From positions 1 to 64,000 of the forward strand of contig JANQLM010000014.1 in the NCBI GenBank assembly GCA_028280635.1: a DNA stretch of 64,000 bases, written 5' to 3'. Source of the stretch: Halieaceae bacterium (GTDB taxonomy: Bacteria; Pseudomonadota; Gammaproteobacteria; Pseudomonadales; Halieaceae). The notes beneath the pieces are model-generated. The model did not search any database, was not told where the DNA came from, and worked only from the letters and a program-made list of their open reading frames with translations. Position 1 is the first letter of the stretch; the number at the start of each line of letters is the position of its first letter. This document shows, one piece after another, positions 47,046-49,654 of this stretch. The position numbers and the translations under genes were made by a program.

Positions 47046-49274
47046 CTAGACCCGCCTATTGAATGTCAGCCGAAACACGGCGCCTCTTTGCTTGCCAGAA
47101 TCGAGTAACTCTGCGCTCCCACCATAGTAGTCCTTTACTATTTCTCCAACTAGGCAGAGGCCAAGCCCATGCCCGTCAGGTTTCTTCGAGAAGTACGGAG
47201 TAAAAATCTGGTCTCTATCTTCGGGGTGTACGCCAGGCCCCGTATCTGAAAAAACCAGTTCGAGTGGGCCTTCATCTTGCCTTTCGACGTGGACCCGGAT
47301 TTCCCTCTCATCCTCAGGAACGCTATGGAGCCAGTAAATACTATTTGTGATCAGATTTGTGAGTATCTCTGATAACTCTGTCTGATCAATGGTGACCAAG
47401 GTATCTGTTGATGGCAAATCAGTTCTGATTTTTGCTTTTTCCAGCTCCCTTTCGTATAGCGCAAAGTAGTCCTTTATGAGTTCTTCGATATAGTATTTCT
47501 TTTGTCTTCCTCGCTTCCTGCCACCAAACGGTTCTGCTCGACGCAGCACGTCGCTCAGGACAGATGATTGAGTTACGATCGTTTTGAAACTCTTGACCAC
47601 ACTTGATGTCGCTTTGCTGTCTTTTTGAGAACCAGAAAGCTGTTCTGCAGTTTCTTTTCCCAGTCCTGCCTCCATTTGGATTTTCGCGAGGGGCTGCCTG
47701 CCGTCATGGAGGATTTTGTCTACAATTCCCCCAAGAGTTGCTAGGGCATGGTACTGAGAAAGTACTACTTGAACCTTTTTGATCTGTGATCTCCAATCCG
47801 CTTCGACTTTTGAAACTAGTTCCAACGTAGTCTGTTTGCTTTCGTCCTTCTTTATTGATTCCACTACGGACTCGAAATCTGGCATCTCGAACATTCCAGG
47901 TTCATCCTGGTGTGGCGTTGCGGTTGATCCATCACGTCGCTTCGCCTTAAATCTCGAGTTTTCGATTTCGCTGAGCACTTGCATCATCATGTTCTGAAGG
48001 TCAGCGTAAGCAGAGTTATTGTCCAATCCTTCCCGGTTGCTTCTATCATGTAATAGCGGATTCTCGTCTGCCGAGATAGAAATGTAGCCGGTGATTTGAT
48101 TATTCGAGAGGTTCCTTGTTGGGTTTTGCACTCGCCGCAGGTCTAGGCGTAGCCAATCATTGTCTGGTTCGCCGTACGGTAGAACTCTAAACCCGTCTCG
48201 ATAAATATTGATTCCCGCTATTGCATCCAGATCCTTGCGGATGCTCCTAATCCCACCACCAACTTTCTGGACTACGTTTTCAAGATCATCTCTATCCCAA
48301 ACTCTAAGCTCAAATTGGATTGCGCCACAGCTAATATCTTCAGCTGACTCAGACTCAATTTGATCATCCCGCTCACTGTTAGCTGCTACCACTACCCACT
48401 CGTCATTGACAAGGGCCCTAATGAACTTACCTTCAAATTCAGCTTTCTTTTGGGTTTCGAGCACCTCAATTTGATACGAGAACTTTCCATCGCCTTCAAT
48501 GGCTCCCGCTGCTTTGTAGTGTGGATAATCGATTATTTCTGGTGGGGAGATTTTGGTTGCTAGTTCGTCATGAGGCGGCGGAAGTTGCACGTAGATATTG
48601 AAGTCACTATTCGAATGAAACGGCGATATCAACCTAGACAACCCTCTTCGGAGTTGCTCCAAGTCTTTACGCTCCCATGTGTGCTTCAATCGATTCATTT
48701 TTAGGTAAGTGCCACTCACCCTCGCATGGGTAGACTCATCCTTGTATTCGTATATTGGTGAATACGTTGTGACAAACTTTGCGTCCTGCTCTTCTGCTAA
48801 AAATTCTATTTCCTCAAGGAAAAGCTCATCGTTATCAAACTGTGACCAGTCAAAGATTGCGTAGGACTCAGTTTGCTTTTGCGAAATCGTACGAGTGAAC
48901 AGCTCAAGCTCCCTGGCAATGCGTGCCGTGGCGAATCTGCCAATACCCTTCTCACCAAGCACCCGTCTTGTTCCACTTCGACTCGTTGTACTCGACTTCT
49001 TGCTCGACGTTGCAATCACCATCCACGAGTCATGTATCGTTGCCATGTCCATGCCATGGCCATCATCGATCACTGATATAGAACCCTTGCCTTCTACTAG
49101 CTCACCCTCAAAGAGAATGAGCACGTTCTCCGCATCCGCGTCGTAGGCGTTTTTGACGAGCTCTATAAGGGCTACTGTTTCGCTGCTTATAAGCTCTTCA
49201 CCAAGAGTTCTGAGTATTCTGGCCTTTGGCCTAAGCACTAGAGGCGCGTTACTTTTATCTGCCGAATCGTTCAT
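47046..49274 (-). CDS. Sensor histidine kinase with additional N-terminal Hsp90/MORC-like GHKL ATPase domain
   Basis: N-term 'ALIELVKNAYDADA', 'SVIDDGHGM', 'LGEKGIGRFA'; C-term H-box 'ILHDGRQPLAKI', N-box 'EILTNLITNSIYW', 'FSDTGPGV', 'DGHGLGLCL'. ORF runs to 49355; start at 49274 preferred. Confidence 0.88.
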   Translation of the reverse strand: MNDSADKSNAPLVLRPKARILRTLGEELISSETVALIELVKNAYDADAENVLILFEGELVEGKGSISVIDDGHGMDMATIHDSWMVIATSSKKSSTTSRSGTRRVLGEKGIGRFATARIARELELFTRTISQKQTESYAIFDWSQFDNDELFLEEIEFLAEEQDAKFVTTYSPIYEYKDESTHARVSGTYLKMNRLKHTWERKDLEQLRRGLSRLISPFHSNSDFNIYVQLPPPHDELATKISPPEIIDYPHYKAAGAIEGDGKFSYQIEVLETQKKAEFEGKFIRALVNDEWVVVAANSERDDQIESESAEDISCGAIQFELRVWDRDDLENVVQKVGGGIRSIRKDLDAIAGINIYRDGFRVLPYGEPDNDWLRLDLRRVQNPTRNLSNNQITGYISISADENPLLHDRSNREGLDNNSAYADLQNMMMQVLSEIENSRFKAKRRDGSTATPHQDEPGMFEMPDFESVVESIKKDESKQTTLELVSKVEADWRSQIKKVQVVLSQYHALATLGGIVDKILHDGRQPLAKIQMEAGLGKETAEQLSGSQKDSKATSSVVKSFKTIVTQSSVLSDVLRRAEPFGGRKRGRQKKYYIEELIKDYFALYERELEKAKIRTDLPSTDTLVTIDQTELSEILTNLITNSIYWLHSVPEDEREIRVHVERQDEGPLELVFSDTGPGVHPEDRDQIFTPYFSKKPDGHGLGLCLVGEIVKDYYGGSAELLDSGKQRGAVFRLTFNRRV

Positions 49275-49654
49275 ATGGACGTGATTTGTAGTTCCATTGT
49301 GTCTACCAAGAAGCCAATCACTGCATTGCTTTACCGGACTCATCACTAGCTGCAAGGCAGCCTACAGAGGGTAGCAAGGTGGATCGTATCATGTAGTTTA
49401 TTTGGTGAGACCTCGGGCTCGTTGTCCAGCGCACTTTTGCATATGCGTCCAGGTTAGCCATCTGGGATGGGTGATCCGAAAAAGCAGCTATTGGCCCATG
49501 TGCTATACAGGAATTGCTCATTCTGGGGTTGACGAGGTGGTATCTACGGCTGTGCATCTTTAGCGCGTGTTTGCGCGAGGGTTACTAGCTGGTTACTTTT
49601 GCTACTCGGTTAACAGATAATTGAGCAACCCGTCAGTCAACTATCCGACATAGT

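Follow-up and report, generated by a model that had tools for sequence, protein, structure and literature searches.

What might a histidine kinase sense when its sensor position holds a second ATPase of another type and its gene lies in an island with a DNA methyltransferase? The question is raised by a gene in the window, by which we mean the whole 64,000-nucleotide stretch of Halieaceae contig JANQLM010000014.1 that was analysed. A first-pass annotation, made from the letters, had described the protein as a joined pair of GHKL modules but had left the kinase unplaced in its methyltransferase island.

The kinase and its two GHKL modules

The features of the kinase gene are as follows, with residues numbered in the 769-aa frame.

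47046..49274, minus strand: dual-GHKL histidine kinase (Pfam HATPase_c_3 and HATPase_c; start taken from homologues)
48831..49178, minus strand: N-terminal GHKL ATPase module, HATPase_c_3, aa 60-175, with E65 and N69 (Pfam E 1.5e-23)
47967..48335, minus strand: middle region, aa 341-463, IYRDGFRVLPYGEP..DWLRLD..NREGL, within the hhalign match to the HEF_HK group
47706..47708, minus strand: codon of H-box His550, the predicted phosphoacceptor (H in 80/80 homologues; aligned to the FixL H-box)
47058..47387, minus strand: C-terminal kinase ATP-binding domain, HATPase_c, aa 657-766 (Pfam E 1.2e-23)

The open reading frame list places the kinase in the frame 47046-49355 on the minus strand, translated as 769 aa. 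The first-pass annotation took this whole span as the gene, and while the gene is real and its end at 47046 stands, its start probably does not: homologues begin at a Met equivalent to M28, so translation probably starts at ATG 49274 and not at TTG 49355. Every motif on which that annotation relied (NAYDADA, DDGHGM, GEKGIGRFA, LHDGRQPL, NLITNSIYW, SDTGPGV and GHGLGL) is found in the translation, and its proposal of two different GHKL modules in one protein is borne out by Pfam HMM matches to both halves (E about 1e-23), each far over the curated cut-off. The H-box sits between the two modules. The N-terminal module carries E65-x3-N69 and the C-terminal module N667-x3-N671; an E-x3-N pattern is that of the hydrolysing MutL/GyrB type and N-x3-N that of the kinase type, and by these residues the two modules differ in type. 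When a profile of nine relatives was compared with known structures, the C-terminal half matched DHp+CA kinase structures (best E 1.9e-20; FixL E 3e-20), and the N-terminal half matched MutL (E 2.8e-4) and, weakly, members of the Hsp90 family. Together with the HATPase_c_3 match, this supports an ATPase of MutL/MORC type as the sensor half. Pairwise alignment with FixL puts the His of LHDGRQPL on the H-box His. The middle region is a putative S5-like transducer; it is conserved, and Pfam scans of the kinase and seven relatives gave no S5 match after the GHKL domain.

The protein had also been called cytosolic, in agreement with a highest 19-residue Kyte-Doolittle mean of 1.2; the mean exceeds 1.8 in one of 80 homologues. 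A transmembrane sensor was rejected on this hydropathy, chance domain matches on E-values of about 1e-23 for each module, and a fused or misassembled reading frame on the eight full-length orthologues found in genome contigs at 43-64% identity. Sequence comparison thus confirms that a MutL/MORC-type ATPase is truly joined to a predicted histidine kinase in one protein.

More distant homologues are encoded on plasmids of Hymenobacter, Burkholderia and Campylobacter, and many on viral or prophage contigs. Members occur widely on plasmids, conjugative ones of Campylobacter among them, and on prophages; the plasmid records found here label them mostly 'sensor histidine kinase' or 'ATP-binding protein'. 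Residue conservation was assessed in an alignment of 80 diverse homologues, of which those from viral contigs include near-duplicates. The kinase half, for which lack of a conserved H-box His across homologues had been named beforehand as counter-evidence, has His at position 550 in all 80 sequences, and in 79 of them the next residue is E or D. E65, N667 and N671 are likewise invariant, as are further residues of the N-terminal ATP-binding motifs and, in the middle region, W401 and R441, and the G1 box residue D704 is kept in 75 of the 80, the other five having N. Some of the sequences were collected with the string KN[AS]YDAD, which accounts in part for the invariance of N69 and D72 but has no bearing on His550. 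The kinase has the full set of two-component histidine kinase boxes (H, N, G1 and G2), with a conserved predicted phosphoacceptor His.

The response regulator partner

A second gene follows the kinase directly.

45870..47039, minus strand: response regulator partner, 6 bases downstream of the kinase (Response_reg, PF00072, E 5.6e-5)
46866..46868, minus strand: codon of receiver Asp58, the predicted phosphoacceptor (sole invariant column in 77 partners)
45930..46442, minus strand: regulator output module, aa about 200-370, TPACD...RIGTPD, with recurrent C-D and R-x-G (hhalign)

The PF00072 match falls short of Pfam's curated cut-off; the window regulator carries the complete set of REC residues (D10, D11, D58, T98 and K117), all of them invariant in close relatives. 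The pairing is near-constant, the gene after the kinase lying on the same strand and no more than 60 bases away in 78 of 79 loci. Distances between kinases correlate with those between their regulators with r 0.90 over 73 pairs, a value reached by none of 2000 shuffles (maximum 0.10), and the corresponding correlation of the kinase with the C5 methyltransferase is looser (r 0.47).

The C-D and R-x-G residues of the output module recur in most long regulators, and hhalign links the window's module to another regulator group (E 6.9e-11). Pfam scans and a PDB profile search of this module returned no match, and no recognisable fold or active site. Among the 77 regulators, Pfam detected no DNA-binding or nuclease domain, and a search of viral contigs by sequence pattern found no homologues of the regulator. 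At loci L083-L148, on viral contigs, regulator output domains are modular, some of the C-D/R-x-G type and others ending in GPxRR or WxPSGADLAR, and another group ends in a zinc-finger-like pattern, CxxC..H..C.

The genomic island

Three further genes of the island bear on DNA modification.

42769..43953, plus strand: AspBHI-like restriction endonuclease, putatively 5mC-dependent (4OC8, AspBHI, E 2.2e-108)
44090..45073, minus strand: C5 cytosine DNA methyltransferase (DNA_methylase E 5.7e-35)
45199..45858, plus strand: Mig/MutY-type DNA glycosylase, in the slot held by Vsr in relatives (best structure 1KEA, E 2.5e-26)

The AT-rich island covers about 42.5-49.5 kb (7 kb) between an alcohol dehydrogenase gene and a cytochrome P450 gene, with a GC content of 45-53% against 63% in the flanks. 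This drop and the absence of the kinase from 57 related genomes point to horizontal acquisition. No tRNA was found in the window. In the one relative with full copies of both flanking genes these are not adjacent. A single P450 match is near-identical (96%, same genus), and its frame is partial, probably because a contig ends there, so insertion of the island at base level was not seen in the relatives searched.

Orthologues of the window's C5 methyltransferase adjoin the kinase in five related loci (L009, L011, L012, L014 and L016). The best structural match of the glycosylase, 1KEA, is a G-T mismatch repair enzyme; the Tyr of GIGHYTA was dropped as a mark of a thymine glycosylase because a MutY has Tyr there too. 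A C5 methyltransferase fused to a similar Mig/MutY-type glycosylase domain was also observed (L015:7137-9059); the glycosylase in the Vsr slot and this fusion are two answers to 5mC deamination in one island family.

The AspBHI-like gene also adjoins the system in L009 and L014. Its product keeps seven of the eight residues of the flipped-5mC pocket, N63 being replaced by S, and so the nuclease beside the C5 methyltransferase looks 5mC-dependent. Compared with a Type II restriction-modification system, the island has the C5 methyltransferase, and its only recognised nuclease belongs to the 5mC-dependent AspBHI family. No helicase is encoded in the island.

Gene neighbourhoods across the family

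Relatives carry the kinase, the regulator, usually a Vsr gene and a methyltransferase close together. L011, L012 and L016 each have the kinase, a regulator and a methyltransferase, L012 and L016 also a Vsr gene, and no recognised endonuclease gene adjoins the system in these three loci; integrase genes adjoin the methyltransferase in L012 and L016. At L010 (4968-9392) an orthologous kinase-regulator pair is adjoined by genes for a DUF2357/PDDEXK_7 protein and a weakly AAA_5-like protein, and no methyltransferase was found near it.

With neighbouring genes taken from mechanical ORFs, a DNA methyltransferase lies within three genes of the kinase in 71 of 80 loci, compared with 2 of 63 control anchors on the same contigs. 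Its position is fixed, in most cases at -1 or +2/+3, and it never lies more than four genes away from the kinase. The 71 comprise 37 C5 enzymes and 34 of the N6/N4 type, the latter called from seven seeds verified by Pfam and otherwise by homology and an NPPY-type motif. Methyltransferase class tracks the kinase tree: it changes 4 times, and 25 times on average when shuffled. Where the regulator consists of the receiver only (fewer than 280 aa), the operon continues with a nuclease-family gene in 12 of 12 cases (9 HNH and 3 metallo-beta-lactamase); these operons form one clade, with one change on the kinase tree, so the observation amounts to a single evolutionary event. Linkage and co-variation of this kind speak for shared function or inheritance and not for biochemistry.

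Relation to described systems

The first-pass annotation could match the architecture to no sensor that it knew from described two- or three-gene kinase-based defence systems; the view that nothing like it has been described is not supported. Bellieny-Rabelo et al. 2021 (PMC8011034) describe kinases with HATPase_c_3, HEF_HK and HATPase_c in the same order, with an adjacent Response_reg_2 partner, linked to restriction-modification, C5 methyltransferase, Vsr and HNH genes; the authors speculate that the pair controls restriction-modification systems, and also speculate on NTP sensing. The window's system shares with the HEF_HK (PF19191)/Response_reg_2 (PF19192) pair a soluble HATPase_c_3, DHp and HATPase_c protein, the adjacent receiver gene and a nearby C5 methyltransferase, and the N-terminal 430 residues of its kinase are homologous to the HEF_HK group (hhalign E 1.3e-52, aa 38-463). 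However, the window kinase is 742-769 aa long against about 1000 aa, its regulator 389 aa against about 570-720 aa, and a glycosylase takes the place of their Vsr. At E up to 1, PF19191 matched neither the window kinase nor seven relatives and PF19192 did not match the window partner, while control proteins matched both models; plain HEF_HK membership was rejected on both failures. In the tree the window kinase falls in a clade separate from HEF_HK. By these profile comparisons the window pair is a sister variant of the HEF_HK/Response_reg_2 pair, outside both published Pfam models.

Related GHKL families, the paraMORCs, were placed in restriction-modification operons by Iyer et al. 2008 (PMC2292703). 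These paraMORC and prokaryotic MORC proteins have in common with the window kinase an N-terminal GHKL ATPase with intact ATP-binding motifs, a conserved next domain, restriction-modification neighbourhoods and lateral mobility; they differ in carrying S5 plus nuclease, TIR or other extensions, with helicases, where the window has a histidine kinase and a receiver partner. The GHKL-Shedu protein VcSduA (paraMORC3-like, PMC12137116) is an anti-phage protein that needs both of its active sites. It too has an N-terminal GHKL ATPase, thought to control its C-terminal module, but its output is a fused PD-(D/E)XK nuclease, whereas the window protein is a kinase predicted to signal to a second protein. 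The DHp and CA half is shared with soluble histidine kinases such as FixL, to whose H-box that of the window kinase aligns. The sensor of FixL is a PAS domain, and in the window kinase a second GHKL ATPase stands in that place. In the open-access papers searched, no description of the N6/N4-methyltransferase branches or of the constant nuclease after short regulators was found, and no experiments on dual-GHKL kinases.

A candidate phosphorelay-gated restriction system

Sequence and comparative genomics show directly which domains are present, which kinase and receiver residues are conserved, that kinase and regulator are nearly always paired, that a methyltransferase is linked to them, and that sister operons contain nuclease genes. 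The almost constant presence of response regulator and DNA methyltransferase genes next to the kinase hints at a defence that tells self from non-self DNA and is turned on through a phosphate signal. We put at about even odds (0.5) the reading in which the kinase is the sensor of a restriction-modification-like defence island, with a two-component phosphorelay gating the effector. The C5 methyltransferase would mark host DNA, with the glycosylase repairing the T:G mismatches left by deaminated 5mC. The N-terminal MutL/MORC-type ATPase and the middle domain would together act as a dimeric clamp, driven by ATP, whose target is DNA and most likely DNA lacking the proper mark, and closure of the clamp, a plausible gate for the kinase, would let the C-terminal domain phosphorylate His550. 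The phosphate would then move to Asp58 of the neighbouring regulator, freeing its C-terminal output domain to act as, or recruit, the restricting effector and so to fill the place held by separate nucleases in sister operons. In this scheme we infer the ATP-driven clamping, DNA as the signal, the phosphotransfer and the role of the output domain. In its favour are L011, L012 and L016, where no recognised endonuclease adjoins the system, and the receiver-only regulators that are followed by a nuclease gene. The window's own island contains the AspBHI-like nuclease, which leaves room for an effector other than the regulator there. Against the scheme, common descent alone may account for the agreement between methyltransferase class and kinase tree, the kinase-methyltransferase correlation is looser than that between kinase and regulator, and the output domain has no recognisable fold.

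C proteins are known to time or tune the expression of restriction-modification genes, and in the main rival explanation the kinase-regulator pair would be a control circuit with that task in an ordinary system, the C5 methyltransferase and AspBHI-like nuclease, outside the restriction step. Two-component systems usually govern transcription, the published speculation on control of restriction-modification (PMC8011034) takes this direction, and the window, L009 and L014 do have an endonuclease gene; however, none of 77 regulators has a recognised DNA-binding domain, several relatives have no recognised endonuclease gene to control, and the receiver-only regulators of sister operons, with a nuclease gene directly after them, leave little room for such a domain. 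We regard this circuit as unlikely, though worth serious consideration. It is improbable that the kinase is a general cytosolic stress or nucleotide sensor, its N-terminal ATPase reading NTP level, which merely co-resides with methyltransferases on mobile islands: defence islands do gather unrelated genes, and NTP sensing has been raised (PMC8011034), but such co-residence fits poorly with a methyltransferase held at fixed places within three genes in 71/80 loci, and with its class following the kinase tree. Loss of signalling from the C-terminal half, leaving a MORC-like DNA-remodelling ATPase in which the kinase-derived part serves only dimerisation or nucleotide binding, would accommodate both the N for D in the G1 box of five homologues and an hhalign match to the HEF_HK group that covers the N-terminal 430 residues only. 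It is very improbable, since the invariance of His550, N667, N671 and receiver Asp58 over very divergent sequences is hard to explain without phosphotransfer.

Extending the phosphorelay-gated reading to the family is tentative, with the odds a little short of even. The window would then exemplify a general class of two-component restriction systems, in which a lineage-matched C5 or N6/N4 methyltransferase of interchangeable chemistry is combined with a dual-GHKL kinase, a near-constant receiver and a modular effector; this effector would be part of the receiver protein in some systems, the window's among them, and in others an HNH or metallo-beta-lactamase nuclease from the following gene, and restriction would be triggered by phosphorylation and not by the nuclease's direct recognition of its site. 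If the phosphorelay-gated reading is true, a His-Asp phosphorelay would tell self from non-self DNA in place of a nuclease reading its own site, and restriction could be amplified, delayed or reset. A MutL/MORC-type ATPase would also gain a direct readout in kinase activity, and a simple assay could then test what these ATPases sense on DNA, a long-standing question.
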